From Maritalea myrionectae DSM 19524 (GTDB taxonomy: Bacteria > Pseudomonadota > Alphaproteobacteria > Rhizobiales > Devosiaceae), in the NCBI RefSeq assembly GCF_000423365.1, contig NZ_AUHV01000002.1:915270-979269 (forward strand): DNA of 64,000 nt. The letters run 5' to 3'. The position numbers and the translations under genes are program-made. Under the pieces are notes generated by a model. It had not been told where the DNA came from. It ran no database searches and worked only from the letters and a program-made list of their open reading frames with translations. Below are positions 8,853 to 27,152 of this stretch, in pieces (position 1 is the stretch's first letter; every line of letters begins with the position of its first letter).

Positions 8853-8875
8853 CACAGGTTTTGGGAGCTAAAACC

Positions 8876-10454: not shown

Positions 10455-11579
10455 TTACGAATGTCGCGCTGCCTCAAGTGCGGCGCGCATGTCTTTAATG
10501 CCTTCACCTATCTTATCGCCATAGCGTAACAGGCTGCCGCCCAAAAGATAAACCACATCGTCACCATACATGCTGAGCATATCGCCAGCCCTGTCTTTTG
10601 ACATGCCGCCGCCCGGGCTGGGGAACATGGGTTTCCCGATGCCGTCCGCTGCACGGCATGCATTTGCGATTGATTTGCACTCTTCAACAGAAAAGCCGAA
10701 ACGACCGCCTACATTGGGGAAGACAGAAATGTCCGAGCCAGCCAAGCGCTGCAACACGCCAAACATCATGGCGTGGGTGAAACCCGTATCATTGGACAAA
10801 ACATATGGCCCCAAAAAGCTGGGGTGTGTCATGATCGGCAAGTCGAATGCCGTGTCGCGCGAGAAGTGGTTGACGATGTCAAAACCCAATAGGCCGGGCA
10901 TGAGCAAAATGCCTCCTGCACCCGCCTGTTTGGCAAAATGGGCATCGTCGATCAATGTCGCGAAATGGCCGCCAATGTTGGGCAAGTAGAGGCAGCTTTG
11001 ACCGGTCTCTTGATTGGCCCGCGCCACCGCGTTGGAGATTTTCTCCACCCGCTCTTTGAACGGCGCTGCCGGCTGGTTCACCAACCCATGATCTTCTTTG
11101 ACAATATTGGCGCCAGCCACCGCGCACAAATAGGCGATTTCGGCCAATTCGTCGGCACTTGAGCCCTGGGGCTTCAGCACTGGAGAAATCAACCCTCCCT
11201 TTGGGGTATCCGCACGTTTGCGCACACCTTCAATACCAAATCGCGCACCGGGAAATTGTTTGCCCAGCGTGGAGCCCAAATCAATATGAGTTACCTGCAG
11301 GCCTTTTTGGATTGAAGAATTGCCAAAGATGACGTTGAAAAGCTGCGTTAGCTCTGTGCCAACGCTTTCAGGGCTATAGGAGAGCACAGCCTCGAACTGA
11401 CCTTCATGGGATTGGCCACAACTTTCAACTTTACCTAAAATCTCGTCCTCGATAAATCCTTGAGGCACCACGTCCCGCGGGATCTCAACGGTCTGCTCCA
11501 GCGCGATATTATGGGCGCGTTCCAGCGCCTCATCGTTGCTTTGCGCTTCGATTTGATAGGTAACGTGCAAGCGGTCCAT
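10455..11579 (-). CDS. RuBisCO-like protein (form IV), probable sugar-phosphate isomerase or enolase-type enzyme
   Basis: The 374-residue protein is clearly of the RuBisCO large-subunit superfamily. LKPQG holds the lysine equivalent to Rubisco K175 (K136), and VKEDHGLVNQP aligns with the carbamylated-lysine motif KDDENVNSQP, giving K161-E-D163-H164. A catalytic histidine candidate is H252 (THPSF). Phosphate-binding loops are SPGGG (321-325) and LLGGS. The Rubisco loop 6 lysine is absent and the metal-binding Glu is replaced by His164, so it should not fix CO2. It is last in the leftward operon after the transketolase halves. With mtnK and mtnA nearby, a role on methylthioribulose- or deoxyribulose-1-phosphate is inferred. 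An alternative is the RuBisCO-like enzymes of apiose/isoapionate breakdown. Confidence 0.85.
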   Translation of the reverse strand: MDRLHVTYQIEAQSNDEALERAHNIALEQTVEIPRDVVPQGFIEDEILGKVESCGQSHEGQFEAVLSYSPESVGTELTQLFNVIFGNSSIQKGLQVTHIDLGSTLGKQFPGARFGIEGVRKRADTPKGGLISPVLKPQGSSADELAEIAYLCAVAGANIVKEDHGLVNQPAAPFKERVEKISNAVARANQETGQSCLYLPNIGGHFATLIDDAHFAKQAGAGGILLMPGLLGFDIVNHFSRDTAFDLPIMTHPSFLGPYVLSNDTGFTHAMMFGVLQRLAGSDISVFPNVGGRFGFSVEECKSIANACRAADGIGKPMFPSPGGGMSKDRAGDMLSMYGDDVVYLLGGSLLRYGDKIGEGIKDMRAALEAARHS

Positions 11580-11581
11580 GA

Positions 11582-12586
11582 TTAAAGGGCCTCCGCCTTG
11601 GCGCTTGAATGCACCGCATCTACCCGCACTGTGTCTAAATCGTCTGCGTCGATATTGGTTTCAATGTTCATCAGCCCTTCAATGCCACGCACTAGGGCCA
11701 GAGCATCAAGACCGTAATAGCGCATCAAATAGGGGCGTGAACCCCCATGGGCATATGTGTCTTGAAGGCCCAAACGCACCAGCTTTTTCTCAATACCAGC
11801 TTCGGCGATGGTTTCTGCCACGAGCGAACCGATACCACCATTGATCACATGGTTTTCAAGGGTGATCACCCCGTGTTTGACTGATTGCAAATGGTCAAGC
11901 AGACGTTTTGAATCAAACGGCTTGATGGTGTTGAGGTGCAAATGCCGGATCGACACGCCAGCGCCTGCCAAAGCCGCCTTTGCGCGAAGAGCTTCTTCTG
12001 TTGTGATGCCCGCTGTCACCACCAGAACGTCATCGCCTTGGGAGAGTTCGCGCATTTCACCCACTTTGATCGGGGTATCAAACAGACGCGGCACCGAACC
12101 GCGCAACACGCGACAATAAACCGGACCATCAATGGAATCTGCAGCTTCACAAAGACTTTCGACTTCCGTGGCATCGCCTGTTTCCAAGATCGACATATTT
12201 GGCATCGCGCGCATGATCGCAATGTCTTCAATGGCTTGGTGGGTCATGCCACCCGGCGTGGTGACGCCCGGCAAAAAGCCCATGATCCGCACTTTACGGC
12301 GCGGATAAGCGATCGAGGCCATCAATTGGTCATAGGGGCGACGATAGGTGAACACCCCAAATGTGTGAATGAAGGGCCGGAAGCCAGCAAGGCCCAATCC
12401 GCCCGCAAAGCTCATCATATTCTGTTCAGCCATGCCCATCGACATGAATTGCTCGGGGTGCCGATCGCGGAAGCCATCAATCTCGCAAGATGAGGTCAAA
12501 TCCGCTGACATGCACAACACATCTTTGTTGGCCAGCGCGTATTTTTCAAATGCACCCGCATAAGGGCGCGTTACCATTTCAACCAT
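11582..12586 (-). CDS. Transketolase C-terminal subunit (pyrimidine-binding half)
   Basis: The 334-residue protein corresponds to the C-terminal half of transketolase. It has the pyrimidine-binding domain with the glutamate that activates thiamine diphosphate (MGMAEQNMMSFAGG) and then the transketolase C-terminal domain. The substrate loop contains PGVTTPGGMTHQAIEDIA. It starts 11 bp after the stop of the N-terminal subunit gene and ends 2 bp before the RuBisCO-like start, so the three genes form one transcript. The pair must assemble into an alpha2beta2-type enzyme. Linkage to mtnK/mtnA suggests an unusual ketose phosphate substrate rather than the housekeeping pentose phosphate reaction. 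Split apulose-4-phosphate transketolases are a known precedent. Confidence 0.88.
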   Translation of the reverse strand: MVEMVTRPYAGAFEKYALANKDVLCMSADLTSSCEIDGFRDRHPEQFMSMGMAEQNMMSFAGGLGLAGFRPFIHTFGVFTYRRPYDQLMASIAYPRRKVRIMGFLPGVTTPGGMTHQAIEDIAIMRAMPNMSILETGDATEVESLCEAADSIDGPVYCRVLRGSVPRLFDTPIKVGEMRELSQGDDVLVVTAGITTEEALRAKAALAGAGVSIRHLHLNTIKPFDSKRLLDHLQSVKHGVITLENHVINGGIGSLVAETIAEAGIEKKLVRLGLQDTYAHGGSRPYLMRYYGLDALALVRGIEGLMNIETNIDADDLDTVRVDAVHSSAKAEAL

Positions 12587-12597
12587 TTTGATCTTCC

Positions 12598-13527
12598 CTA
12601 ATGCGTGTCGAATTGAACCGGATCAATGCCCAGTTCTTTTGCGATGGAGACGTTCATCTCGTCACGCTCTTGTTCTGATTTAAAGCGCACATAGTGCAAG
12701 CGCGGGAATCGTTTTTGCAAAAATGACATGCCGTGTGTGGGTGATGAATGCGCCAGAATTATCAAGGGCTGCCCCTCATGTGGCTCTTTTTTGGCTTGTC
12801 GCATCGCATCCAAATCATGGGCGTCAATTTCCACCACGGTTGCGCCAAAGGCGCGCATCTTGGTGGCGATATCGCGTACTTCCATAACTGAGGACATGGC
12901 GCCATCGCACTGCTGATCATTCACATCCATGATCGCCCACACATTGTCGATACCATGGTGCGCGCAGGCCTGAATGGCTTCCCAGGTCTGTCCTTCTTGC
13001 ACTTCACCGTCGGACATGAACACGCAGACTTCGCCAGGTTCGCCGCGCAAGCGACGGCCATATGCAAGGCCAGCGCCCGTGGATAGGCCGATGCCGAGGG
13101 TGCCATTGTGCACTTCCATGCCGGGAGAGTGTTCCGCGCCAATCATTTCAACTGAAGAACCGTCCTTATTGAACATTTCAAGCCCCTCTGCCGCCATGCG
13201 CCCTGTCTCGATCAAGGTGGCATAGGCCACCAGCGCGTAGTGGGCTGGGGCAATGAACAGTCGGTCATATTGGGGTTCAAACGGCCCGTTGTAGCCAGCA
13301 CCGGTGACATAGTCATCATTGCCCGGCGCGGGCACCCCGCCAAATGGCGGCGGGATCATCGGCATTGTTGGCTCGCCCAAATTCAACGCTTCATTGTAAA
13401 GCCATGCCAATTGCTCAGCGGCTGAACAGGCTTGGCTGAGATAGCCACCATTGTTGCGCATCGAGTGTTCAAAAACGCGGCGGCGTATGCCCAACGCGAT
13501 CTCTTCTGTCGTCTTTTGGTTTTTCAC
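12598..13527 (-). CDS. Transketolase N-terminal subunit (diphosphate-binding half)
   Basis: This is the thiamine diphosphate- and metal-binding half of a split transketolase, about 309 residues. The cofactor motif is SDGEVQEGQTWEA followed by DVNDQQCDG. The substrate loop with conserved histidines is EHSPGMEVHNGTLGIGLSTG, and APAHYAL holds the usual early histidine. I prefer the GTG start at 13527, which has GGGGGA five bases upstream; an ATG at 13539 is in frame but lacks a ribosome binding site. An operator-like palindrome lies 41-73 bp upstream. A small insertion near PMIPPPFGGVPAPG differs from housekeeping transketolases. Confidence 0.87.
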   Translation of the reverse strand: MKNQKTTEEIALGIRRRVFEHSMRNNGGYLSQACSAAEQLAWLYNEALNLGEPTMPMIPPPFGGVPAPGNDDYVTGAGYNGPFEPQYDRLFIAPAHYALVAYATLIETGRMAAEGLEMFNKDGSSVEMIGAEHSPGMEVHNGTLGIGLSTGAGLAYGRRLRGEPGEVCVFMSDGEVQEGQTWEAIQACAHHGIDNVWAIMDVNDQQCDGAMSSVMEVRDIATKMRAFGATVVEIDAHDLDAMRQAKKEPHEGQPLIILAHSSPTHGMSFLQKRFPRLHYVRFKSEQERDEMNVSIAKELGIDPVQFDTH

Positions 13528-13567
13528 CCGTTCCCCCATCAAAAGTGTGGCGTGGATTCTCTAATTA

Positions 13568-13600
13568 TTACTAATGTCAGTAACACATAACATTTGATAA
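13568..13600. promoter_or_regulatory. Operator-like palindrome upstream of the split transketolase
   Basis: TTACTAATGTCAGTAA (13568-13583) is an inverted repeat with 5-bp arms, and AACATTTGAT follows at 13590-13599. On the minus strand TTACTGACATTAGTAA matches 13 of 16 positions of the right half of the strong palindrome in front of the SorC-type regulator. It probably binds the same regulator. The match is weaker than at the other two sites. Confidence 0.45.
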
Positions 13601-13626
13601 ATAAAGCGTGCAGGCGCCCTGAACTG

Positions 13627-14070
13627 CTAAAAAATCACGCCTTTGCGCAAGATAAAGCACCCAAATGGGCGCATTTCACCCACACGCACCACAGCAAAGC
13701 AATTTTTGGCGCGTTGGTAGAATGTTTGACGCTCAAGTGAGCCGAGATTTGCAGGCGCTGGCTTGGCCTTTTCCAGCACATCAAATACCAATTGATGCAC
13801 CTCACCCATTTCGTCGGGCGCATTGTCGATTTCCATGCGCCATGCGCAAAAATCGTAAAATTCTTCAAGCGGGAAATGCTTGGTCATGGCGTTGATCAAA
13901 GCTGGGGCATCCATGCCGGGCAGGTCGACGATTTCGCCGGTTACTGTTTCAAGCGCTGTCGAATGAGCAGGAAAATTTGCATCCACAATAGCGATCTCGT
14001 CGCCATGGCCCATTTGCATCATCACATAGACGAGATGGGCGGATAGTTTGCGGTCTAGTCCTTTGAGCAT
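13627..14070 (-). CDS. RbsD/FucU-family sugar mutarotase
   Basis: The 147-residue protein is of the RbsD/FucU family, cytoplasmic enzymes that interconvert ring forms and anomers of ribose or fucose after import. The N-terminal signature MLKGLDRKLSAHLVYVMMQMGHGDEIAIVDANFP is followed by the PGMDAPALINAM region and a C-terminal YQRAKNCFAVVRVGE active-site segment (only short pieces are typical of the family). The ATG at 14070 follows GGAGGAG, which fixes the start. It lies between the importer genes and the split transketolase. Here it likely prepares the imported pentose derivative for the kinase MtnK. FucU-like length (about 147) favours the FucU branch. Confidence 0.85.
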   Translation of the reverse strand: MLKGLDRKLSAHLVYVMMQMGHGDEIAIVDANFPAHSTALETVTGEIVDLPGMDAPALINAMTKHFPLEEFYDFCAWRMEIDNAPDEMGEVHQLVFDVLEKAKPAPANLGSLERQTFYQRAKNCFAVVRVGEMRPFGCFILRKGVIF

Positions 14071-14082
14071 TTGCTCCTCCAC

Positions 14083-14123
14083 AAAAAAGGGGCGATCTTG
14101 GGTTTTGCCCAGTTGATCGCCCC
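14083..14123 (-). terminator. Intrinsic terminator or attenuator after the importer binding-protein gene
   Basis: On the minus strand a 9-bp stem GGGGCGATC/GATCGCCCC is followed directly by six T residues. It lies between the binding-protein stop (14150) and the rbsD/fucU-like start. Transcription from the importer genes into the enzyme genes is therefore probably reduced, and the transketolase genes have their own operator-like site. Confidence 0.7.
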
Positions 14124-14149
14124 AAGTTCAAAGGGTTGCGTCTTTTAGA

Positions 14150-15196
14150 TTATGGCAACGGCATCCAGTCTGGAACCGCCACTGGTGCATGGGCAAACTG
14201 TGGCAATTTTTCGCTCAGCTCTTCCATGTTTTTGATGTCTTTTTCCAACAGATCTTTTTGTGTGATCAAGGTTGGTGGCACCACAACGCTTGCGCCGGGA
14301 TCTTCACCAGCCAACATCATGGCCAAGGCCCGTACAGACACTTCGCCCACAACTGCTGGGTTGGTTGCCGCTGTGGCTTTCCAAGCACTGTTTGGCTCGC
14401 GCATTGCTGCAATGTCAGATGTCGAAACGTCAGCGGAATAGATGCTGACTTGATCGGTCATGCCCGCTTCATCAACAGCAATTTTTACGCCTTTAGCAAA
14501 TTCATCATATGGCGCAAACATCACAGTGATGTCTGGGTTGGCGGACAATACTGAACGCGCTTGGTTGGCGTTTGAGTTGGCGATTGGGTTGTCCAATGTG
14601 CCGAACTGGGCTTTTTCGTCGATGCCAGGATAGCGTTCTTTGAACTCTACCCAAGTTTCGTTACGACGATCCAATGGCGCGATGCCTGGTACGTAGACAT
14701 AGCCGGCTTTCCAGCTCTCGCCATTGTCAGCGATCGCTTGTTCCAAAGCCAAACGGGCCAAGTCGCGGTCAGACTGTTCGATCTGCGGCACCGCTGGATT
14801 TTCAACATTCACGTCAAAAGCCACAACTTTGATGCCTGCATCCACTGCGCGTTGCACAGCTTCCTGCATGGATTCAGTCAGGCCGTGCTGCACGATGATG
14901 CCGTCTACACCAAGGGCGATGGCTTGATCGACCATATCTGCTTGCAAGGCAGCGTCCTGACGGCTGTCCAACACGCGCAGATCAACGCCCAAAGCTTCTG
15001 ACTGACGCTCTACGCCAGACAAATAAGCCTGGAAAAAGTCACCCGTTGAGAGATAACGCACCAACGCAATTTTCACATCGCCTGGATTGTCGAATGGTGC
15101 AGGCATATCGGCCGCATGGGCCAATCCTACGAAGCTAGATGCGGCAAGGGAAACCCCTGCGAGCATTTTAGCAAACATGCGTCTAGTTAGTTTCAT
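14150..15196 (-). CDS. Periplasmic sugar-binding protein, ribose/autoinducer-2 type
   Basis: This is a Peripla_BP_4-type binding protein for a type II sugar importer, 348 residues. The start at 15196 follows GGAGGA; it begins MKLTRRMFAKMLAGVSLAASS, a twin-arginine-like or Sec signal ending near LAHAA. The body has the two-lobe fold seen from VKIALVRYLSTGDFFQAYLSG, DSRQDAALQADMVDQAIALG and AVVGEVSVRALAMMLAGE. It is the third gene of the leftward importer operon and is followed by a terminator. Linkage to mtnK/mtnA makes 5-methylthioribose or 5-deoxyribose the candidate ligand; that is inference. Confidence 0.88.
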   Translation of the reverse strand: MKLTRRMFAKMLAGVSLAASSFVGLAHAADMPAPFDNPGDVKIALVRYLSTGDFFQAYLSGVERQSEALGVDLRVLDSRQDAALQADMVDQAIALGVDGIIVQHGLTESMQEAVQRAVDAGIKVVAFDVNVENPAVPQIEQSDRDLARLALEQAIADNGESWKAGYVYVPGIAPLDRRNETWVEFKERYPGIDEKAQFGTLDNPIANSNANQARSVLSANPDITVMFAPYDEFAKGVKIAVDEAGMTDQVSIYSADVSTSDIAAMREPNSAWKATAATNPAVVGEVSVRALAMMLAGEDPGASVVVPPTLITQKDLLEKDIKNMEELSEKLPQFAHAPVAVPDWMPLP

Positions 15197-15251
15197 TTGG
15201 TTCCTCCGATTTAAGTCGACCATATTGTTGAACGCTCTAGGGTGGTCGGGC

Positions 15252-16271
15252 CTAGCGTCTATTTGAAAGCGCGAACGTGAACATGAGGGCCACCACCAGC
15301 ACGCCACCTTTCACAAAGTCCTGCGTGTAATAAGGGGCATTCATCATGGTGAGGCCTTGCAGCAAAATGCCGACGAAAAGTGCGCCGATTGCCGTGCCGA
15401 AAGCATTTGGCTTGGCGGCGCCCAGAACGGCAAAACCGATCAGCGCGGCGGCCACGGAATCGAGCAGCAAATTGTTGCCCGAGGCGATATCGCCACGGCC
15501 AAGACGGGCCGCAAGCAAGATGCCACCCATTGAGGCCAAAACGCCTGAAATCATATAGGCGATGATTTTGTATTTTTTCACCGGCACACCAGCAAGGCTT
15601 GCGGCGCGTTGGTTGGAGCCAATCGCGTACATCACTCGGCCATAACGGGTATATTCAAGGAAAAGCCAGATGCCGATGGCAATAACAATCAAGAAGACCA
15701 CGGAAACCGGGATCAGATTGTCGATAAAGAAGTCAAAGCGATGACGGCCCAGCGCCAAGAATTCTGGCGAAAAGCTACCCTGAGCTGTCGAACCATCGGG
15801 CAAGCTCATGCCAGTCGCGATGGAGCGCCCTTCGGTTGGAATACGCTGCAGACCAATCAGCAAGAACATCATGCCCAATGTTGCCAGCAAATCCGGCACG
15901 CGCATTTGCACAATCAAGAAGCCATTGATCAGTCCGACCAGCGCGCCCATCAACAAACAGGCAACAACGGCAACCAGTGCGCTTTGCTCGAGCACCACCA
16001 TCACATAGGCGGATAGCATCAACGCCGAAGTGGCGACCGCCCCAATGGACAGATCAAACCCATCCACCACCAAGGTGGCCGTTACGCCCAAGGCCAAAAT
16101 GCCGGTGATGGCAACAGACTGGAAGATAAACACTGCGCTATAGGGACTTGCAAACCCTTCTGCGGCAATGCTGAAATACACCACAAGGCCGACCAACAAG
16201 GCCACAAAGCCATAGCGAATGGCGTAGTCGGTTAATGACATTGTTTTTGTGTTTACACGGGTTTCGCTCAT
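15252..16271 (-). CDS. Ribose-type sugar ABC transporter permease
   Basis: The 339-residue membrane protein is of the BPD_transp_2/RbsC family, with about eight to ten hydrophobic helices. The family landmarks are VVDGFDLSIGAVATSALMLS, a YAIGSNQRAASLAGV loop and LLDSVAAALIGFAVLG. Its start overlaps the ATPase stop by four bases. It probably works as a homodimer because no second permease gene is present in this operon. Together with the ATPase and the binding protein it forms a complete importer. Confidence 0.9.
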   Translation of the reverse strand: MSETRVNTKTMSLTDYAIRYGFVALLVGLVVYFSIAAEGFASPYSAVFIFQSVAITGILALGVTATLVVDGFDLSIGAVATSALMLSAYVMVVLEQSALVAVVACLLMGALVGLINGFLIVQMRVPDLLATLGMMFLLIGLQRIPTEGRSIATGMSLPDGSTAQGSFSPEFLALGRHRFDFFIDNLIPVSVVFLIVIAIGIWLFLEYTRYGRVMYAIGSNQRAASLAGVPVKKYKIIAYMISGVLASMGGILLAARLGRGDIASGNNLLLDSVAAALIGFAVLGAAKPNAFGTAIGALFVGILLQGLTMMNAPYYTQDFVKGGVLVVALMFTFALSNRR

Positions 16272-17803
16272 CGAGCTGCCCCTTCTTTTTGCTTTTGTTG
16301 GTCTTTTGCCGCTGCAGCGCCAGATACTTGCTCTAAGATCAAGTCCACATCGACATGTTCATTTTTGTGCTCACCGACAATGGTGAATTCAGCCATCACC
16401 AAAATACGGTCTGCAATTTCCAAAGCCTCATCCAATTCCGCCACCAGCACGATGGTAGCCCGATCTTTGGCTGTTTCGCGCAATTTGGTGCCAATATCGC
16501 GACGCGCAGCGATATCCACCCCTTGGAAGGGCTCATCCAAAATCAGCACGTCGCATTCGTGAGAGAGCCAACGGCCCACCATGACTTTTTGCTGGTTGCC
16601 GCCAGAAAGCGTGCCAATTTCATCATTGGCCCCCTGGCAGACGATGCCCAGCTTGTCGATGGCGGCATTGGTTATTTTGTATTCGGCATTTCGGCGCACA
16701 AAACCGAAGGAAGACAGGCTGGACAAGAACGGCAAGGTAATGTTGCGGTTAATATCGAAATCCTGAACCACACCGTTTGTGCCACGGTCTTTTGCGCACA
16801 AAAACACGCCTTGATTGATGGCATCGCGTGCGGAGTTTGGCGCATAGGGCTTGCCGTTAAGTTGCACTTTGCCGCCAGCCGCAGCCATTTGACCAAATAG
16901 AACTTCAGAAAGCTGGGTTTTGCCCACGCCAACCAACCCGGTGATCGCGATCACTTCATTGCGGTGGGCTGTTAGATTAATCGGCTGGCTTTCAGGTTTG
17001 AGTTTCACATCGGTGAGCTCCAGCACTTTTTCGCCAGGCGCTTGTACGGTGATGTTCACATCGGTCATGGTGTGCCCGAGCATGTCATTCACGGCGCCCT
17101 CATAATCCAGCGGCGCTGTTTCGTATTTGCCAACAATAGTGCCATCTCGCATGGAGACAATTCTGTCGGCCACGCGACGGATATCTGACATGCGGTGGGA
17201 AATATAAAGAATCGCAACGCCGCTCTCACGTAGTTTTTCCACCAACCTGAACAGGCGCTCAGCTTCGGCTGCGGAAAGGGAGGAGGTCGGCTCATCCAAA
17301 ATCATCATTTTGGGCGAATGGGCCATGGCCCGTGCAATCGCGACCAATTGGCGATCAGCGAGCGTGAGGTCGCTGACCATTGAATTCATATCAAAGTTCA
17401 AGTCGAGTTTGGCGGCAATTTCCTCAGCGGATTTGCGAATCCGTCTTGGATTGAGCAATGGCGCGCTCTTTGGGTTGGCCAACCAGTCCAACATCAAGTT
17501 GGACGCCACATCCAAGTCTGGCACCACCCCATCATTGATGTTTTGGTGCACAGTGACGATGCCTGCTTGCAGCGCCGCTGACGGCGTGTTGGGCGCAAAT
17601 GGCTCGTCGTTGAGAAACACTTCACCTGCGTCCGCTTCATATAGGCCACAGATTATTTTCACCAGCGTAGACTTGCCCGCCCCGTTGGCGCCCATCAAAA
17701 CGGTCACCTTGCCCGCAGGGATATCAAGATCCACGCCGCGCAACACACGGTTGGCGGCAAATCTCTTTTCTAGCCCACGAATTTTAATGGGTATTCCAGC
17801 CAT
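16268..17803 (-). CDS. Ribose-type sugar ABC transporter ATP-binding protein (double ATPase)
   Basis: The 511-residue protein contains two fused ABC domains as in RbsA/MglA. Domain 1 has the Walker A motif GANGAGKST and MILDEPTSSLS. Domain 2 has a degenerate Walker A (GLVGVGKTQ), the signature LSGGNQQKVMVGRW and VLILDEPFQGVD. The start at 17803 is fixed by GGAGGAG just upstream; the frame extends 14 codons further but runs into the operator palindrome. It is the first gene of the leftward importer operon, divergent from mtnK. Confidence 0.92.
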   Translation of the reverse strand: MAGIPIKIRGLEKRFAANRVLRGVDLDIPAGKVTVLMGANGAGKSTLVKIICGLYEADAGEVFLNDEPFAPNTPSAALQAGIVTVHQNINDGVVPDLDVASNLMLDWLANPKSAPLLNPRRIRKSAEEIAAKLDLNFDMNSMVSDLTLADRQLVAIARAMAHSPKMMILDEPTSSLSAAEAERLFRLVEKLRESGVAILYISHRMSDIRRVADRIVSMRDGTIVGKYETAPLDYEGAVNDMLGHTMTDVNITVQAPGEKVLELTDVKLKPESQPINLTAHRNEVIAITGLVGVGKTQLSEVLFGQMAAAGGKVQLNGKPYAPNSARDAINQGVFLCAKDRGTNGVVQDFDINRNITLPFLSSLSSFGFVRRNAEYKITNAAIDKLGIVCQGANDEIGTLSGGNQQKVMVGRWLSHECDVLILDEPFQGVDIAARRDIGTKLRETAKDRATIVLVAELDEALEIADRILVMAEFTIVGEHKNEHVDVDLILEQVSGAAAAKDQQKQKEGAAR

Positions 17804-17841
17804 AGTCTCCTCCGATGAAGTCACGTTAAATGCATCTGACA

Positions 17842-17869
17842 TCAAATGTCAAACGTTATTGACATTTGA
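17842..17869. promoter_or_regulatory. Perfect palindromic operator between the importer operon and mtnK
   Basis: Arms TCAAATGTCAA (17842-17852) and TTGACATTTGA (17859-17869) are perfect inverted repeats with a 6-bp spacer, ACGTTA. The element (T/G)ACATTTG(A/T)CA is shared with the palindrome in front of the SorC-type regulator gene. It lies 38 bp upstream of the importer ATPase start and 107 bp upstream of mtnK, so it can control both divergent units. Confidence 0.7.
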
Positions 17870-17975
17870 CATTTAAATTGCAAATCATGGGTCAATATGT
17901 GTTTGGCGTTTGCGCTTTTGCATGTCACCCTAACCCTTGAATTTGTTAGCGTGACGAGCGCTTTGGGAGGATATT

Positions 17976-19244
17976 GTGAGCAATCCATATGAACCATTAA
18001 ATGTAGACACAATTGGCGAAAAACTTGGCCATTTGGAGATTTTACAGGAAAAAGTAGGCCCCGATTCCAGCACGTGGACAGCCCAAGAAGTCGGCGATGG
18101 AAACTTAAACCTTGTGTTTATTGTCACCGGCCCGAGCGGACAAGCAATTGTGAAGCAGGCGCTGCCTTATGTGCGCCTTGTGGGCGACAGTTGGCCCCTG
18201 CCGCTAAAGCGTGCCTTTTTTGAATATCACGCGCTGACACGGCAGGCAAAATATGCGCCAGAGGATGTGCCGGAGGTTTATCACTTCGACGAATCGCAGG
18301 CGCTTATTGTGATGCAGTTCATGTCACCGCATGTCATTTTGCGCAACAGCCTGAAAGATGGTGTGCAGCATAAAAATTTGGCTGAGGTGGCTGGCAAATT
18401 TTGTGCCCGTACTTTGTTCCGCGGCTCAGACCTTTCAATGGACACAAAGCAGCGTAAAAAGGATTTGGCACTTTTCGCGGACAATATTGAGCTTTGTGAC
18501 ATTACCGAAAATCTGGTGTTCACTGACCCTTATTATGATGCGGAGATGAATCGCCACACCAGCCCGCAATTAGACGGCCTCGTGGCCAGCCTGCGCGCGG
18601 ATATCGACCTTAAAGTCGCCGCACAGCATCTAAAGGCCAAGTTCTGTAACAATGCAGAGACTTTGTTGCACGGCGATTTGCACACCGGCTCCATCATGGT
18701 GACTGAAACGGACACGGTTGTGATTGACCCTGAATTTGCCACCTATGGTCCCATCGGGTTCGACATTGGCATGTTGTTGGGCAATTTCTATATGGCGTTT
18801 TTTGCGCAAGATGGCCACGAATCTGAAAAAGGCGCGCGCGACGATTATGCCCAATGGATTTTGGACGTGACGTGCGACATCTGGCACCATTTTGAAGAAG
18901 AGTTCAGCCATTTGTGGCGTACGGAACGCAACGGCATTTTGTATGACCAGCGGCTTTACGAAGACCAAAATCAAAACCTTGCGTCAGAACAAGCGCTGGC
19001 CGATCGGTTGAACGACATATGGACAGACTTGCTTGGCTTTGCTGGTGTTGAAATGCACCGCCGCATTCTGGGTCTGGCTCACATTATGGAGCTCGACAGC
19101 ATCGAAGATGATGATCAACGCGCCGCCTGTGAAGCGCGGGCATTGCATTTTGGCCGCCAGCTTGTGATTTCACGCGCTGCATATAAATCCCCCCACCAAA
19201 TCGCCGAGCTTGCGCGCACGGTTAGAAAGGACAATTTCCTATGA
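17976..19244 (+). CDS. mtnK: S-methyl-5-thioribose kinase
   Basis: MtnK phosphorylates 5-methylthioribose, and in some organisms 5-deoxyribose, at C1 using ATP. The 422-residue protein has the aminoglycoside-kinase-like fold. [10 protein letters not shown] forms the nucleotide loop, the catalytic motif is [13 protein letters not shown] and the metal motif is [19 protein letters not shown], both diagnostic for MtnK. Translation starts at GTG 17976 with GGGAGGA upstream. The stop overlaps the mtnA start, so both are co-translated. No mtnB, mtnC or mtnD genes of the classical methionine salvage pathway are in the window, which points to another fate for the product. Confidence 0.93.
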
Positions 19245-20335
19245 AAATAGATGGCACCCATTATCGCTCGATTTGGCTTGGGGACGATCAAAAAACCGTC
19301 AAAATAATTGAGCAGCGCCTGCTGCCGCATGAGCTGAAGGTCGTTGACCTGAAGTCGCGGGAAGACGCGGCCATTGCGATTAAGGATATGTGGGTGCGCG
19401 GTGCGCCGCTGATCGGCGCCACCGCGGCGTACGGCATGGCTTTGGCTATGGCCGACGATCCATCGGATGCCAATTTGGAAAAATCGTGGGAGATTTTGCA
19501 CGAGACACGCCCCACCGCCATCAATCTACGTTGGGCTTTGAACCGCGCCAAAGCGCATCTTGGTGCCATGGCACCGGAAGAACGCGCGGCAGCGGCTTAC
19601 AAACTGGCAGCCGAAATTTGCGATGAAGATGTAGAGATCAATCGCTCCATTGGCGAAAACGGCCTCAAACTCATTGAAGAGATTGCGGCCAAAAAAGCGC
19701 CGGGCGAAACGATCAATATTTTAACTCATTGCAATGCGGGGTGGCTCGCCACTGTGGACTGGGGCACCGCCACCTCGCCCATCTATCATGCGGTGGAAAA
19801 AGGCTTGAAGGTTCATGTGTGGGTGGATGAAACCCGGCCCCGCAACCAGGGCGCACAATTGACCAGCTGGGAAATGGCCAGCCATGGCGTGCCGCACACG
19901 TTGATCGTGGACAATGCGGGCGGCCATTTGATGCAGCATGGGCAAGTGGACATGGTGATTGTGGGGACAGACCGCACCACCGCCCAAGGCGATGTGTGCA
20001 ACAAGATCGGCACCTATTTGAAGGCGTTGGCCGCCAAGGACAATAATGTGCCTTTCTATGTGGCGCTGCCCTCACCCACCATCGATTGGACCGTGAACGA
20101 TGGCGTGAAGGAAATTCCAATTGAAGAACGCGATGGCCGCGAAGTGACCCATGTTTATGGCAAGCTGGAAAATGGCGAGCGTGATTGGGTGCAAATTTCA
20201 CCTGACGCCACCCCAGGTGGCAACCCCGCATTTGACGTGACACCATCGCGCCTGATCACTGGTCTGATCACAGAGCGTGGCATTTGCGATGCTTCGAGTG
20301 AAAGCTTGAAAAAACTATTCCCTGAGCAGGAATAA
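19241..20335 (+). CDS. mtnA: S-methyl-5-thioribose-1-phosphate isomerase
   Basis: MtnA converts methylthioribose-1-phosphate to methylthioribulose-1-phosphate, and also accepts the 5-deoxy analogue in the DHAP shunt. The 364-residue protein shows the eIF2B-alpha-like fold with the catalytic cysteine in [11 protein letters not shown] (C164) and aspartate in [19 protein letters not shown] (D244). [15 protein letters not shown] is the usual substrate loop. It follows mtnK with a 4-bp overlap and is ended by a strong terminator. The product would be the substrate for the aldolase at 21445 and possibly the RuBisCO-like protein. Confidence 0.94.
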
Positions 20336-20341
20336 TGTGGG

Positions 20342-20377
20342 AAGGGGGCGCAACATGGTTTGCGCCCTTTTCTTTTT
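20342..20377 (+). terminator. Intrinsic terminator of mtnK-mtnA
   Basis: Stem GGGCGCAA (20346-20353) pairs with TTGCGCCC (20360-20367), followed by TTTTCTTTTT. It lies directly after the mtnA stop and before the convergent SorC-type regulator gene. Confidence 0.85.
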
Positions 20378-20382
20378 AACGT

Positions 20383-21360
20383 CTAATCTAAAGCGAGAAT
20401 AAGTTCAGCTGTTTCCGCATCGGTCACCAAATGGGTCGCATAGCCGCCATTCATCACCGCCGCCATCGCTTTGGCCTTATCTTCGCCGACGGAAACCAAA
20501 AGTCCCATTTCGAGATCTGTTAGCTTGTCCAGTTCAACGCCAATCATGCGTTCATCAAGCGGCCCTTTGACAGGTTTACCGACCTTGTCGACAAAACGAC
20601 CACACAAGACCCCACTGGCGCCATTTTCCACATAGGTTTTCAAATCGTCTTCGCTGGCAATGCCGCTCATCACGACGTGGGAATTGGCGCACACAGACCC
20701 TGCGGCAAACACAGCCTTGTTGCATTGATCCAACGCGGCCAACTGATTTTTAATGATCGGCTCCGCCCGCAATTGCCGGGCCAAATCAATGTTGGTGACA
20801 ATGGCCGGCGCATGCAAATTGATGCAGGCCGCGCCGAGGCCCTGTGCCAAATGGGCGGAACAGATTTCGGCAGTGAAGCCATAGGGCGTTGCCATCGAAC
20901 CGACGAGCTGCGCCACTTCCACATCAGGAATGGTCACATTGGCAGAGGACACCAAAAGTTCTGCCATTTCATATATGGTTTGCCCCCAAGCGACCCCCAG
21001 CTTATCGCCGGGCGCCACCAAATCCGGCAACCATTCGGCCGCGCCGCGCGCGGCCCGTGTGAGCCGCGATTGAATATCGCCCAACCCGTTGGGCACGATA
21101 AAGGCGGCTTTCAGGCCAAACTTTTCGCGCAATTGGTGCGAAAGCTTATGGCCCATAAATACGTCAGGCGCCATGGTGACGCGGATATAGTTCCGCTCAC
21201 GCGCTTCCTGCAAATAATTAACGACAGTGGCGCGAGACACCGCCAAGCGATCGGCAATTTCGTTTTGGTTTAGCCCGTCATGGTAATAAAGCCACGCCGC
21301 TTCCACCACGATTTCGTCACCACTCACCTGTCCTGAGGCGCGTCTTTTGCCGTATGCCAT
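20383..21360 (-). CDS. SorC/DeoR-type sugar-responsive transcriptional regulator
   Basis: The 325-residue protein has an N-terminal helix-turn-helix (residues about 15-55: NQNEIADRLAVSRATVVNYL) and a SorC-type sugar-phosphate-binding domain. That domain starts near GLKAAFIVPNG and includes GVAWGQTIYEMAE and CGRFVDKVGKPV. Regulators of this family usually bind a phosphorylated sugar as effector and form tetramers on palindromic DNA. It is divergent from the aldolase/dehydrogenase gene, with a 31-bp palindrome 19 bp from its own start. Related palindromes before the importer and the transketolase suggest it controls the whole locus. Confidence 0.9.
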   Translation of the reverse strand: MAYGKRRASGQVSGDEIVVEAAWLYYHDGLNQNEIADRLAVSRATVVNYLQEARERNYIRVTMAPDVFMGHKLSHQLREKFGLKAAFIVPNGLGDIQSRLTRAARGAAEWLPDLVAPGDKLGVAWGQTIYEMAELLVSSANVTIPDVEVAQLVGSMATPYGFTAEICSAHLAQGLGAACINLHAPAIVTNIDLARQLRAEPIIKNQLAALDQCNKAVFAAGSVCANSHVVMSGIASEDDLKTYVENGASGVLCGRFVDKVGKPVKGPLDERMIGVELDKLTDLEMGLLVSVGEDKAKAMAAVMNGGYATHLVTDAETAELILALD

Positions 21361-21378
21361 AAAATCCCTCTTTTTTCT

Positions 21379-21409
21379 ATTTGACAGATGTTACTAACAT
21401 TTGTCAAAT
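21379..21409. promoter_or_regulatory. Near-perfect 31-bp palindromic operator
   Basis: The half-site ATTTGACA-G-ATGTTA is followed by a central C and then TAACAT-T-TGTCAAAT; there is one mismatched pair (21387/21401). It sits between the divergent SorC-type regulator gene and the aldolase/dehydrogenase gene. A TTGACA-like -35 is embedded, so bound regulator would block RNA polymerase. This is the strongest of three related sites in the locus. Confidence 0.75.
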
Positions 21410-21444
21410 TACAGAAAATTTCCCCTAACTGGACGGACAGCTTC

Positions 21445-23484
21445 GTGGTAAAAAATCTCTGGAACGACAAAGACGCTCAACATTTTCTTGATAATGCTGG
21501 CCCAGAGGAAGCAGATCGTCAACTGGCATTGAGGGTTTATACATCCCGTATCATTGGTCAAGACCCTGATATGGTGATGCATGGAGGTGGCAACACTTCT
21601 GTGAAGGTGAAACGCGCGGATATTTTCGGCAATGAAATAGATGTGCTTCACGTAAAAGGCAGCGGTTGGGACCTTGAAACCATCGAAGCGGCGGGCCTGC
21701 CCGGTGTGCACATCACACCGCTTGAAAAGCTACGCCAGCTCCCAGCGTTATCCGACGAAGACATGGTGAATTTGCAGCGCTCCAACCTGCTCGACAGTAC
21801 GTCGCCGAACCCTTCAGTTGAAACCTTGCTGCATGCATATATCCCCCACAAATTCGTCGATCACACCCACGCCACGGCCATGCTGGCTTTGGCCAACATG
21901 CCGAATGTGGAAGAGGTGATCAAAGAGATCTTTGGCGATAAGGTGGCTCTGGTGCCCTATATTATGCCTGGCTTTGAACTGGCCAAGGTGGCGGCCGATA
22001 TCTTTGATCAGAACCCTGATGTTGAAGGGCTGCATCTGATCAATCACGGTCATTTCACGTTCGGCCCTGACGCCAAATCATCCTACGAATTGATGGTTGA
22101 GCATGTGAGTGCGGTTCAAGACTGGTTTGAGCGCCGCGCTGAAGCGCAGCCCCCTGTGCGCGGGTCAATGCTCAGTGCCAAAAGCATCTTGCCGAAAATT
22201 CGTGCCAGCCTTGCCCGTGCCATGAAGACACATACGGGCAATCAGGACCAAGCCGCACCATTTTTGGATTTGCGTGCCAATGACCAGATTTTGCGCTTTC
22301 TCACCCGCGATGATTTGGGTGATCTGGCCAAGCGCGGTGTAGCCACACCAGACCATGTGATCCGTACCAAAGGGTTTCCTACCATTATCGCCAGCGACGA
22401 TCAGCAAACAATTGATGCGGCCATTGATGCATTTGTCGAGAATTACAAAGCCTATTTCGCGCGGCAGGACGCACGAGTGAGCGATCAAAAAACCATGTTG
22501 GTGCCCACCCCAAATCTATTTTGGGTGCCCGGTCTCGGTTTGATCGGGGTTGGCGGCAATGCTGCCGCTGCTCGCATTGCAGCAGATCTCGGCACGCAAA
22601 CGATTCAGGTGATGGAATGGGCCGAGGCCAATGGTGGCTTTTACCCGATCAAGGAAGATGACCTTTTTGATATGGAATATTGGTCATTGGAACAGGCCAA
22701 GTTGGGCAAAGCCAAACCAAAGCCATTGCAAGGCAAAGCCGTGTTGGTGACGGGCGGTGCCGGTGCAATCGGACTGGCCACAGCAAAAGCATTCAAAGAT
22801 CAGGGCGCCAACATTTTCGTGGTCGACCGGGATCAGGATGCGTTGATCGGAGCTATTGGCAATTTGGGCATGGATCATGATGGCGCCGTGATCGATCTTT
22901 GCAGCACGGAAGGGCCACAACATGCCATTGATGCCATCGTTCGACGGTTCGGCGGCATTGACATTTTGGTCACCAATGCAGGCGCGGCGTGGTCAAAATC
23001 CATGCTCGATATAGATCAAGATACATTGCGCAATAGCTTTGAGCTCAATTTCTTCTCGCACCAAAAAATTGCGCAAGCTGCAGCAAAGGTGATGCATACC
23101 CAAGGCACGGGCGGCGATATTCTCTTCAATGTATCCAAGCAAGCGGTCAATCCAGGCAAAGATTTTGGCGCTTATGGATTACCCAAGGCCGCGACATTTT
23201 TCTTGGTCAAGCAATTTGCCCTCGAGCTCGGGGAAATGGGCATCCGTGTCAATGGCGTTAATGCCGATCGCATTCGCTCTGGTTTGTTGACTGACGAATT
23301 CATCGAAAGCCGCTCTAAATCTCGCAACATCAGTGCCGAAAATTATATGGCTGGTAATTTGCTCAAGCGGGAGGTCGAGGCCCACCACGTTGCGGACGCA
23401 TTTGTGGCACTTGCGCTCGCGGCCCGCACAACGGCGCATATAATGACCGTAGACGGCGGCAACATTGAAGCCAGCTTACGCTAA
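21445..23484 (+). CDS. Bifunctional class II aldolase / short-chain dehydrogenase
   Basis: About 679 residues in two domains. The N-terminal class II aldolase (to about residue 400) has HGGGNTSVKVK, VDHTHATAM and HLINHGHFTFG, whose histidines bind the metal. The C-terminal short-chain dehydrogenase has TGGAGAIGLA for NAD(P) and the SxnYxxxK catalytic set (FNVSKQ, YGLPKAA). The architecture is that of rhizobial RhaD (rhamnulose-1-phosphate aldolase/lactaldehyde dehydrogenase). Next to mtnK/mtnA it likely splits methylthioribulose- or deoxyribulose-1-phosphate into DHAP and an aldehyde, which the second domain oxidises or reduces. The GTG at 21445 is preferred because the upstream ATG at 21388 lies inside the operator. 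Confidence 0.87.
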   Translation: MVKNLWNDKDAQHFLDNAGPEEADRQLALRVYTSRIIGQDPDMVMHGGGNTSVKVKRADIFGNEIDVLHVKGSGWDLETIEAAGLPGVHITPLEKLRQLPALSDEDMVNLQRSNLLDSTSPNPSVETLLHAYIPHKFVDHTHATAMLALANMPNVEEVIKEIFGDKVALVPYIMPGFELAKVAADIFDQNPDVEGLHLINHGHFTFGPDAKSSYELMVEHVSAVQDWFERRAEAQPPVRGSMLSAKSILPKIRASLARAMKTHTGNQDQAAPFLDLRANDQILRFLTRDDLGDLAKRGVATPDHVIRTKGFPTIIASDDQQTIDAAIDAFVENYKAYFARQDARVSDQKTMLVPTPNLFWVPGLGLIGVGGNAAAARIAADLGTQTIQVMEWAEANGGFYPIKEDDLFDMEYWSLEQAKLGKAKPKPLQGKAVLVTGGAGAIGLATAKAFKDQGANIFVVDRDQDALIGAIGNLGMDHDGAVIDLCSTEGPQHAIDAIVRRFGGIDILVTNAGAAWSKSMLDIDQDTLRNSFELNFFSHQKIAQAAAKVMHTQGTGGDILFNVSKQAVNPGKDFGAYGLPKAATFFLVKQFALELGEMGIRVNGVNADRIRSGLLTDEFIESRSKSRNISAENYMAGNLLKREVEAHHVADAFVALALAARTTAHIMTVDGGNIEASLR

Positions 23485-23542: not shown

Positions 23543-25927
23543 TCAACCGCTACGGCTCCAATCCAACAAATTGGCGATCAGGCGGTAGGCACCCGGCACC
23601 AGCTTATCAAGCTGGTGATGCAGGATCAGACTGGTGTGTATGTGGCGCCCCTTGCCAAACGCACCGACAAGCAAGCTGCCCTCAAGTGGCTTCTCGCCCG
23701 CATCATGCATAGACAAGAGCGGCTGATAGGCATCGTCCCAGGTTGAAGCAAAATAGAGCCCTCGCTCCTTGTGCCAATCTGCCCAGTCGTCAGCCCCTAT
23801 TGTGTTTGGCCCGTTCAGCACCTCGTGCTCGGGCGCCAAATAGGTCACGGCTGCATTTTCATCGGTCACACGCCACCGTAAGGAGGGTTTGCCAATTTCC
23901 AATGGCGCCAATGGGACCCGATCTTTATCCCAATTGTCCCATGGGCGATGATATAGGGTGAGCAAATTGCCGCCGCCATGCACCCATCTATGTAGTGTCT
24001 CGATATTGTTGAGCAATTCGGGGCGAGTGCGGAAAGCAAATACCCCCACAATGATGCTATCAAAATCATCAAACCGACCCGCTGCAATGGCATCGTCGTC
24101 GATGTTTGCCACCTCCACGCCAAATTGGTTTAGCCAGTAATCCACACGATCACTGCCGCCACCAATATAGCCAATACGTCCCCGTGGCAGCGTGGCATCC
24201 AAAACACGCACCGACAATCGCGCAGGCTCTGCCCGATTGAGTGGTCCCGTGTGCGGATAATGCATACGCCGGACAAAATAGGCATCTTCACCGCCCAGCG
24301 TCACGGGCAACTCATAAAGACCTGGCTCAATGTTTTCCTTCGCCGTCAACGCAATCCCTCGAGCCCCCACTTCGCATTCCAAAGAGTCGTCTCCAGCTAT
24401 CTGCAAATCGTCGGCGCTGCCGCCCGCACGCTCAATAGATTTGGTGGCCAAGCATTGTTTATTCAGCAAAATTGCTTTGGGCTCCAAGGCCACTTCATGT
24501 GCAGGCAAAATGTTTAGCCGTTGCAATGGATCAATTTGCATTTCTATTTTCACGCCTTCGATCGTCCACGCGAGCTGCAGATGGACATCTTCATTGGCGC
24601 GCACTGGCGACCAAATATCGGGCAATGGATCGCTTGGTAGCGCGTCCACGGGCACTCGGACCTCGAATTGATGTGGCGCTTCTTTTGTTACCTGCCATCC
24701 TGCTGGGCAAACGACCGTCGCTTCAATGTCAAATGGCGAATCCAACTCCACCTCAAATCGCACCGCATCGCCGGGACGCGCATAAATCTGATCTGACGAC
24801 AAACTGGCGCGCACTGGACAGGCAAAGTAAAGCGCACGCTGTAGTTGCATCTCTTTTGCATCGAGCCGATGGATGATTTCGGCCTTCGCGTGGCTTGGAC
24901 ATTGCGCCTTGGCTTCACGCACAGCTTCCAGCGCCGCCAGCAAAGATGTCATAACACGATTGGCATGCGGCCAATGCTCAAGCGCAGCGTCCATCGCACT
25001 TTGTGCGGTGAAAAGCAGCAAGCCGATTTCGGGCGCTTTGGCGTAATTTGCCAGCTGGTCTAAAGTCTGGGGCAGCCCCTCAAATATTGAGTGCTCATCA
25101 TGGGGTGCCTCGTCGGCCGCCCAGGCCAAATGCAGGGGCCATTTTTTCTCTTTGCCCGGCGCGACCCAGGTGCCCATGCCTTGCGTTTGGTGGTAAGCGC
25201 GAGACACTTGCCCCAATTGCGCATAATCCATACCGATCACAGGATCTTGGCCAGTCCCGTCAATCTCCACGGTTGCGGGCGGCGGCGGCAAGTCATCATC
25301 ATATGCATCTCCCGCACCAGACCATGCGGGCAGATAGAGTTTTTTGACATGCCACACAGGTAGATTTTGCTCAGGAAACGCCTCTGGATCAGCGGCCAAT
25401 ATCACCGCCTTATAGGCACTTTTTGTCATCGCCCGATGGTGCCCGTGCTGCCCCGGCACATCCAGAAATGTGACGGCGGCGATATCTGGACGCTCGGTAC
25501 GTAAAATCCAAACAAAACGCTCTAACGTGCGCGCTTCGCCCCACTTTTCTAGGGTTTCTTCGCCACTTTTGGAAAATCCAAAGTCTGCTAGCGGATCACC
25601 GGGATATTGGCACAGCCAATATTGGGTCATGTCCAAAATGTCTGCCGCACGTTCCATTTCACGCGTACGCACCACGCCAAGATCAACACCGGTTTCGGTG
25701 CCAATTGCATTCTGCCCGCCTTCCCCACGGGTAGAACAGGCGTGGGATAAATTGATCCCATCGCGATAATGCAAAGCCGCCAGCATGGTGGAGATTTCAT
25801 CATCAGGGTGTGCACCGGTATTCATAAAGGAGACACAGGATTTTAGCGGCAACAAAGCGCGCCAAAGCTGCACAGAACGTGGCTGCGCAAAGGCGTTTAA
25901 CAATCGATCTGCATCATGCTTGGGCAT
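23543..25927 (-). CDS. Large PIG-L family deacetylase with C-terminal amidotransferase-like domain
   Basis: The 794-residue protein begins with a PIG-L/LmbE zinc deacetylase domain (residues about 30-270). The metal motif is GAHPDDE (38-44) and the second histidine set is GQHGHHRAM (161-164). PIG-L enzymes remove N-acetyl groups from GlcNAc-type conjugates. A beta-rich middle region (about 380-570) follows. The end (about 590-790) resembles a class I glutamine amidotransferase/ThuA-like fold (IGYIGGGSDRV, FDSIIVGVFAFRTR, WVHGGGNLLTLYHR). No signal peptide is seen, so it should act in the cytoplasm. It follows the ROK gene by 16 bp as its operon partner. The substrate is unknown. Confidence 0.8.
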   Translation of the reverse strand: MPKHDADRLLNAFAQPRSVQLWRALLPLKSCVSFMNTGAHPDDEISTMLAALHYRDGINLSHACSTRGEGGQNAIGTETGVDLGVVRTREMERAADILDMTQYWLCQYPGDPLADFGFSKSGEETLEKWGEARTLERFVWILRTERPDIAAVTFLDVPGQHGHHRAMTKSAYKAVILAADPEAFPEQNLPVWHVKKLYLPAWSGAGDAYDDDLPPPPATVEIDGTGQDPVIGMDYAQLGQVSRAYHQTQGMGTWVAPGKEKKWPLHLAWAADEAPHDEHSIFEGLPQTLDQLANYAKAPEIGLLLFTAQSAMDAALEHWPHANRVMTSLLAALEAVREAKAQCPSHAKAEIIHRLDAKEMQLQRALYFACPVRASLSSDQIYARPGDAVRFEVELDSPFDIEATVVCPAGWQVTKEAPHQFEVRVPVDALPSDPLPDIWSPVRANEDVHLQLAWTIEGVKIEMQIDPLQRLNILPAHEVALEPKAILLNKQCLATKSIERAGGSADDLQIAGDDSLECEVGARGIALTAKENIEPGLYELPVTLGGEDAYFVRRMHYPHTGPLNRAEPARLSVRVLDATLPRGRIGYIGGGSDRVDYWLNQFGVEVANIDDDAIAAGRFDDFDSIIVGVFAFRTRPELLNNIETLHRWVHGGGNLLTLYHRPWDNWDKDRVPLAPLEIGKPSLRWRVTDENAAVTYLAPEHEVLNGPNTIGADDWADWHKERGLYFASTWDDAYQPLLSMHDAGEKPLEGSLLVGAFGKGRHIHTSLILHHQLDKLVPGAYRLIANLLDWSRSG

Positions 25928-25943
25928 AATTATTCCTTTGCGT

Positions 25944-27140: not shown

Positions 27141-27152
27141 AAATGAAATTTA

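Follow-up and report, generated by a model that had tools for sequence, protein, structure and literature searches.

A probable methylthioribose-scavenging locus in Maritalea myrionectae that pairs a RuBisCO-like protein with a split transketolase

Pairing of a RuBisCO-like protein with a split transketolase

In Rhodopseudomonas palustris, the RuBisCO-like protein (RLP) RLP1 is reported to turn methylthioribulose-1-phosphate into methylthioxylulose-5-phosphate, and a cupin at the next step strips off the methylthio group, eventually giving methanethiol (PMC5893883). A 64-kb window of the Maritalea myrionectae DSM 19524 genome (positions 915270-979269, on a contig of a 3.54-Mb assembly) contains a locus in which an RLP is accompanied by a split transketolase. 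Its minus strand carries the RLP, the two transketolase halves (TKc and TKn), an RbsD/FucU protein and a three-gene ribose-type ATP-binding cassette (ABC) importer; beside them lie mtnK-mtnA (plus strand), a SorC/DeoR regulator (minus strand) and a fusion of a class II aldolase with a short-chain dehydrogenase (Ald-SDR, plus strand). Families were assigned by setting Pfam and NCBIfam profile scores (in bits) against curated cut-offs. Open reading frames (ORFs) and both profile sets placed every gene that a sequence-only reading had listed between window positions 10455 and 23484 where that reading had put it. The locus probably scavenges methylthioribose by way of MtnK, MtnA, the RLP and cleavage by the transketolase, a judgement made from sequence that leaves aside the fate of the two-carbon unit; 5-deoxyribose is probably scavenged as well.

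The RLP (374 amino acids; 10455-11579, minus strand) matched PF00016 at 61.5 bits (cut-off 30.1), and its nearest named relatives, at 91% identity, were from Maritalea species. The best PDB sequence match was 3qfw, an R. palustris RLP, at 199.7 bits (next match 121.8), and the same structure was the top Foldseek match of the predicted model (pLDDT 94.1). Since 2qyg is titled rlp2 of the same organism, 3qfw is, by elimination, probably RLP1. A phylogenetic tree grouped the RLP with cupin-linked RLPs and apart from OiaX-like and RuBisCO-type rows (100/100), and K136, K161, D163 and H164 were invariant in 30 rows of transketolase- and cupin-linked RLPs. The window protein is probably a 5-methylthioribulose-1-phosphate 1,3-isomerase, predicted from its kinship to the R. 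palustris RLP to yield 1-methylthioxylulose-5-phosphate. Two other assignments were rejected. As the MtnW enolase of canonical methionine salvage it scored 135.6 with TIGR03332 (cut-off 513.6) and 186 with PRK09549, its best NCBIfam match (cut-off 409), and MtnD was also not found; as OiaX of the apiose pathway it scored 67.2 against a cut-off of 700. Distant RLPs, about 25% identical to that of the window, occur in the window's own family of bacteria (L017-L030); of two that were read, one was OiaX-like below the cut-off and one was a RuBisCO large subunit over the cut-off.

A close relative of TKc (48-100% identity) was present in 35 of the 36 RLP genomes searched (L052 not included), in three of them at another genomic place. 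The sole searched RLP genome without it, from Syntrophomonadaceae (L053), has a cupin. Among 136 genomes of the window's family, RLP and TKc occurred together in 15, TKc alone in one, where a contig ends and the RLP may lie off the contig, and a close RLP alone in none; nine other genomes of this set held a more distant transketolase paralogue. A sample of the class comprised 385 genomes, in which RLPs were called at E<=1e-30. Of its 17 RLP genomes, 13 had a cupin directly adjoining the RLP, three had the transketolase and one was cut by a contig end; none of the 17 had both the cupin and this transketolase. One cupin-type genome (G390) holds a distant transketolase paralogue, at 222 bits. Conversely, the cupin methylthioxylulose-5-phosphate methylsulfurylase was found in none of 37 transketolase-type genomes, the window's included (E<=1e-10). 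In the tree, the cupin-linked RLPs of the class formed one clade with 3qfw (100/100), and the cupin-associated L053 RLP fell inside a transketolase-linked group (97/95). The starred branches require at least two changes between cupin and transketolase, in a tree where several rows sit on long branches. Taken together, these distributions suggest that the split transketolase probably replaces the cupin methylsulfurylase, and it is because it stands in the cupin's place that it is taken to act on methylthioxylulose-5-phosphate.

TKc (11582-12586, minus strand; 334 amino acids) is the pyrimidine-binding and C-terminal half, with PF02779 and PF02780. TKn (12598-13542, minus strand; 314 amino acids; PF00456, 53.3 bits) is the thiamine diphosphate (ThDP)-binding half, and its start is perhaps the ATG at 13539. 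Their best PDB matches were 6yaj for TKc and 6yak for TKn, from the split transketolase of Carboxydothermus. In a Hyphomicrobiaceae metagenome-assembled genome (MAG; L051) both halves form a single ORF of 669 amino acids; an AlphaFold model of this fused protein was poor (pLDDT 65.4) and was not used. The second-best NCBIfam match of TKc was the model of DXS, 1-deoxyxylulose-5-phosphate (DXP) synthase, at 146.8 bits, below the cut-off of 465.95. An ordinary transketolase and a DXP synthase (814, cut-off 466) are also encoded in the window genome, each scoring above its cut-off, so the split enzyme is not needed for either of these roles.

The ThDP-binding and catalytic residues D178, N208 and H101 of TKn and E54 and H116 of TKc were kept in 36 of 36 aligned rows. 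For aligned positions, residue numbers and presumed roles were taken from yeast transketolase. The phosphate-site positions S386 and R528 were kept in all rows and R359 in 32 of 36. At the sugar site, H30 was replaced by Y in 35 of 36 rows (the other having a gap), H103 by M in 35, and H469 by F and D477 by G in all 36; the position of H263 aligned with K in 34 of 36 rows, in a part of the alignment that is unsure. As a control, nine paralogous transketolases (TKc part 36-43% identical) were compared: H30 was Y in eight of eight and H103 lost in eight of eight N-terminal halves read, and D477 was lost in nine of nine. The loss of H30 and H103 had been considered a sign of a substrate that lacks the C1 hydroxyl, and this was withdrawn because the paralogues share both losses. 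What sets the RLP-linked transketolases apart from the paralogues is F at H469 and G at D477, together with S at S386, which paralogue L098 also keeps. In the window's family, a paralogous transketolase half (about 43%; L107:7218-8444) has a ribose-type importer and a regulator of GntR/LacI type in its vicinity.

Conservation of the gene set and its predicted operators

Loci with a close RLP relative numbered 39, the window included; they are not independent, as the window and 14 others belong to the window's own family. Presence of genes was scored by tblastn with identity thresholds of our choosing, and gene calls in GC-rich loci were chosen by the GC content of third codon positions and are in places erroneous. 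Beside the RLP, TKc was found in 35 loci, mtnA in 29, mtnK in 26, the importer binding protein in 24, Ald-SDR in 22 and RbsD in 10. Of the four loci without an adjoining TKc, three come from genomes that hold it elsewhere, and the fourth is L053. Several families of Alphaproteobacteria have the gene set, and so does a Bacillota MAG, where it is spread over two contigs; because gene order is shuffled across families, the linkage reflects neither simple synteny nor chance. In the Devosia-type loci L059-L065, mtnK-mtnA-TKn-TKc-RLP form one same-strand run. The Oscillospiraceae MAG has the importer, MtnK, MtnA, RLP and a class II aldolase on one contig, and RbsD, TKn and TKc on the other. The sequence-only reading had joined the RLP-transketolase block to mtnK and mtnA, and the co-occurrence of these families in other alphaproteobacteria bears this out.

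Two related gene groups were seen among these genomes. In a Roseitalea MAG, the transketolase stands away from the RLP/mtnK/mtnA cluster (L037); its neighbours there (L071:9493-17410) are an S/N-oxide-reductase-like gene, a zinc-dehydrogenase-like gene and genes for a xylulokinase-like kinase and an AraD-like aldolase. At L044:11129-16219, adjoining TKn-TKc-RLP, an S/N-oxide-reductase-like gene precedes genes for an ABC importer of amino-acid type and a homocysteine S-methyltransferase-like protein.

A perfect palindrome, TCAAATGTCAAACGTTATTGACATTTGA, lies in the divergent promoter of the importer and mtnK (17842-17869). An exact match to its pattern, AATGTCAGTAACACATAACATTTGA, was found at 13573-13597, in the 84-base gap 5' of TKn and upstream of TKn-TKc-RLP, and a related palindrome of 29 bases, TTTGACAGATGTTACTAACATTTGTCAAA, lies in the divergent promoter of the regulator and Ald-SDR (21380-21408). 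Matches to the operator patterns in the 64-kb window were confined to these three places, with 0 expected (100 shuffles). Three other Maritalea loci (L032-L034) share the first two sites, and L032 has the third as well; sites of similar look, judged by eye, were seen at the importer/mtnK promoters of L059 and L062. General scans of the window for promoters (9, shuffle mean 11.2) and terminators (18, shuffle mean 17.6) were no better than chance and merely pointed to the palindrome. Importer/mtnK-mtnA, transketolase-RLP and regulator/Ald-SDR apparently form one regulon under joint control. A single regulator would bind all three predicted operators. The regulator encoded at the locus is of SorC/DeoR type with a sugar-binding domain (20383-21360, minus strand; PF04198, 186 bits). 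The shared operators, the kinship to an isomerase-type RLP and the mutual exclusion of cupin and transketolase lend support to the earlier suggestion of an RLP-transketolase branch beside an aldolase branch.

Proposed pathway and its substrate

In the proposed pathway, the sugars would be 5-methylthioribose left from 5'-methylthioadenosine (MTA) and 5-deoxyribose from 5'-deoxyadenosine. Uptake would be by the ABC importer, comprising a periplasmic sugar-binding protein (14150-15196, minus strand; PF13407, 118 bits), a permease (15252-16271, minus strand; PF02653, 140 bits) and an ATPase with two ABC domains (16268-17845, minus strand; two stretches of PF00005). The ORF of the binding protein extends to 15307, a start that is probably too early, as relatives such as the L032 copy (348 amino acids) begin at the equivalent of 15196. 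The RbsD/FucU-type mutarotase (13627-14082, minus strand; PF05025, 105 bits; FucU model NF011949 67.5, below its cut-off of 141) would interconvert anomers. By family assignment, the S-methyl-5-thioribose kinase MtnK (17976-19244, plus strand; TIGR01767 492.5, cut-off 275) would then form the 1-phosphate, and the methylthioribose-1-phosphate isomerase MtnA (19241-20335, plus strand; Pfam family IF-2B; NF004326 494.5, cut-off 271; TIGR00512 432.4, cut-off 279) the ribulose-1-phosphate. In a first branch, the RLP would shift the carbonyl to give 1-methylthioxylulose-5-phosphate, which the ThDP-dependent transketolase would cut between C2 and C3 into glyceraldehyde-3-phosphate and a ThDP-bound methylthio two-carbon unit.

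Further neighbours bear on the substrate. Among the 39 loci, a purine nucleoside phosphorylase was found in eight, a TRZ/ATZ-type deaminase in six and an S/N-oxide-reductase-like gene in six. The phosphorylases of L061, L040 and L103 were over cut-off; L103 also has a NupC-like transporter, below cut-off, and in L061 and L064 a Bmp/PnrA-type importer stands beside phosphorylase and deaminase. L040 lacks mtnK yet has the phosphorylase and mtnA, which would fit phosphorolysis yielding the 1-phosphate directly. The matches of the amidohydrolase-type deaminase include deaminases of MTA and S-adenosylhomocysteine (SAH) and of 5'-deoxyadenosine (the latter 319 bits, cut-off 522). The window genome encodes an MTA/SAH nucleosidase (TIGR01705, 235, cut-off 152). 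The earlier reading had noted mtnB, mtnC and mtnD as absent from the window, and a genome-wide search likewise found MtnD (PF03079) in none of 35 genomes, the window's included, several of them MAGs whose completeness is unknown. The same search found it in Bacillus subtilis and four others of 14 controls, two over cut-off. The phosphorylase, deaminase and S/N-oxide-reductase-like neighbours support salvage of methylthio- or deoxynucleosides, and the last of these, lying nearby, favours a sulfur substrate. We lean tentatively towards methylthioribose over 5-deoxyribose.

If the RLP-transketolase branch served mainly 5-deoxyribose, 5-deoxyribulose-1-phosphate would become DXP and then glyceraldehyde-3-phosphate and an acetaldehyde-level two-carbon unit, which amounts to half of the DXP synthase reaction run backwards. 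The DXS model as a match of TKc and the 5'-deoxyadenosine deaminase among the deaminase's matches would fit, as would the reported acceptance of 5-deoxyribose by MtnK and MtnA of bacteria with the dihydroxyacetone phosphate (DHAP) shunt (PMC10986504). We nevertheless think this use of the branch unlikely. The S/N-oxide-reductase-like gene lies by transketolase-RLP in six loci, the genome has its separate DXP synthase, a methylthio compound is the reported substrate of R. palustris RLP1 (PMC5893883), and mtnK-mtnA-ald2 are described as enough for 5-deoxyribose in Escherichia coli (PMC10986504).

The ThDP-bound unit left in the methylthioribose branch carries a methylthio leaving group. In Xsc (sulfoacetaldehyde acetyltransferase) and phosphoketolase, a leaving group is lost from such a ThDP-bound unit, and methanethiol release is proposed on this ground. 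The unit would most likely expel methanethiol to give acetyl-ThDP and from it acetyl phosphate or acetate. The transketolase would then be a C-S bond-breaking, phosphoketolase-like enzyme that allows an oxygen-independent conversion of methylthioribose to glyceraldehyde-3-phosphate, acetyl phosphate and methanethiol, an overall reaction that we put forward tentatively. A rather doubtful variant of the last step has the transketolase free methylthioacetaldehyde, to be oxidised or reduced by the SDR domain, so that no methanethiol arises directly and a second route leads to the end product of the DHAP shunt. The fusion of an SDR to the aldolase in 22 loci accords with it, and the DHAP shunt is described as giving 2-(methylthio)acetaldehyde, seen as methylthioethanol (PMC5893883). 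Yet it would make RLP-transketolase redundant with the aldolase, although 35 of 36 genomes retain RLP and transketolase as a pair, and the cupin at the same step is reported to remove the methylthio group as eventual methanethiol (PMC5893883). It is highly improbable that the transketolase instead adds a two-carbon unit to a free deoxy sugar as acceptor, in the manner of 7-deoxysedoheptulose formation. A promiscuous cyanobacterial transketolase is reported to do so with 5-deoxyribose (PMC8102628), but this would explain neither why the enzyme is so strictly paired with the RLP nor why it takes over from the cupin, and the phosphate-site positions S386 and R528 are conserved throughout.

In a second branch, the aldolase domain of Ald-SDR (21388-23484, plus strand; NF006192 881.8, cut-off 639) would split the ribulose-1-phosphates, perhaps mainly 5-deoxyribulose-1-phosphate, into DHAP and an aldehyde that the SDR domain would handle. 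One may speculate on a division of labour, with Ald-SDR for 5-deoxyribulose-1-phosphate, which has no leaving group, and RLP-transketolase for the methylthio compound. The true start of Ald-SDR is probably after 21408, as the operator falls inside the ORF. Its identification as the rhamnose aldolase-dehydrogenase RhaD was rejected, since TIGR02632 (461.4) falls below its cut-off of 567.75, whereas NF006192 passes. Other class II aldolases lie near the RLP in four loci (L042, L044, L054 and L055).

Several observations weigh against methylthioribose scavenging through these enzymes. The RLP reaches no NCBIfam cut-off and shares only 34-36% identity with the class's cupin-linked RLPs; the replacements at H30, H103 and D477, being common to paralogues, are no proof that the substrate is substituted at C1. 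Only Maritalea shows a clear operator ahead of TKn: it was not evident in the 160 bases upstream in nine non-Maritalea loci, three of which had no half-site and six one or two unpaired half-sites. The deaminase falls below all its cut-offs, and the S/N-oxide reductases (BisC/TorA kind) scored 834-909 bits, below the bisC_fam cut-off of 1017.55 in five of five read. A gene using acetyl phosphate or methanethiol was not identified in the cluster, without a search aimed at such genes, and two branches that both yield triose phosphate look redundant. MtnK and MtnA are reported to act on both methylthioribose and 5-deoxyribose (PMC10986504). Finally, in 10 of the 39 loci, a number of which are short contigs, neither mtnK, mtnA nor a phosphorylase lies near the RLP. 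Other kinases replace mtnK/mtnA in L042 and L044 (PfkB), in L071 and partly in L054 (xylulokinase-like); L042 and L044 further have genes for a class II aldolase and a zinc-dehydrogenase-like protein, and the substrate at these four loci may differ from that of the window.

Such loci, some with a different importer as well as kinase, would suit a transketolase-RLP block that serves another sugar, for example of apiose type, and merely adjoins an mtnK/mtnA/aldolase DHAP shunt; other RLPs are reported to be used in apiose catabolism (PMC6302742). We regard this as improbable in view of the OiaX score far below cut-off, the operators shared in the window, the single mtnK-mtnA-TKn-TKc-RLP run of the Devosia-type loci and the exclusion with the cupin.

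Genes flanking the locus were also read. Adjoining the RLP, 7701-10392 encodes an acyl-CoA-dehydrogenase-like flavin protein (SfnB and DszC matches below cut-off), a flavin reductase and a nitrilase; these flavin monooxygenase/nitrilase genes were rejected as members of the system, the nitrilase having no match in three other Maritalea loci. A choline dehydrogenase gene (betA, over cut-off) lies at 5141-6799, and homologous ORFs occur near the RLP in L036 and partly in L037. Just past the locus, 23543-28583 encodes a large protein weakly resembling mycothiol conjugate amidase, a ROK-type regulator and a sugar-binding protein.

Comparison with known systems

The sequence-only reading knew of no described pathway with this gene set, and no RLP-transketolase pathway surfaced in the open-access literature, which does not cover the bulk of subscription papers. 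Each element, namely the RLP step, the DHAP shunt and the split transketolase, is known singly; what we take to be new is that they are combined and that a transketolase replaces the cupin. To our knowledge, a methanethiol-expelling transketolase reaction has not been described. If true, it would add to the outcomes of the RLP isomerase step, having traded places with the cupin on more than one occasion, and methylthioribose would supply carbon, energy and sulfur by an oxygen-independent salvage with its own sugar importer. Two unrelated enzymes would be exchanged at what looks like one metabolic step. The proposal would assign a function to a conserved split transketolase and to RLPs outside all curated NCBIfam models, and predicts a further bacterial route, in alphaproteobacteria and some Bacillota and Chloroflexota, that consumes the methylthio sugars of S-adenosylmethionine metabolism and possibly frees methanethiol. 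The gene set is small and open to in vitro testing.

Canonical methionine salvage (MtnW/MtnX or MtnC, and MtnD) shares MtnK and MtnA with the locus and, in Bacillus, also an RLP. It differs in MtnD, found in none of the 35 genomes here, and in MtnW, whose cut-offs lie far above the scores of the window RLP. As in Xsc and phosphoketolase, the proposed reaction would form acetyl phosphate when a ThDP-bound two-carbon unit loses a beta leaving group; these enzymes belong to other ThDP sub-families, and the leaving group here would be methanethiolate. The DHAP shunt (MtnK/MtnA or MtnP/MtnA, with Ald2) has in common MtnK and MtnA, over their cut-offs, and a class II aldolase. In the window the aldolase domain, at most a candidate Ald2, is fused to an SDR, and an RLP-transketolase branch with related operators is added. 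In the sulfo-transketolase pathway, a peripheral catabolic route, the two-gene transketolase SqwGH likewise acts on a sulfur-containing sugar (PMC11659671). Its substrate is a sulfonate, whereas here it would be a thioether, and SqwGH is reported to move a non-sulfonated two-carbon unit; RLP, MtnK and MtnA are not mentioned for that pathway in the accessible part of the source (PMC11659671). The MTA-isoprenoid shunt of Rhodospirillum rubrum and R. palustris shares MtnA and an RLP of the RLP1 kind, and MtnD was not found in the genomes searched. In the Maritalea locus a split transketolase replaces the cupin, probably at the same step; importer, mutarotase and MtnK are added; and the predicted product is a triose phosphate, where that of the shunt is DXP.

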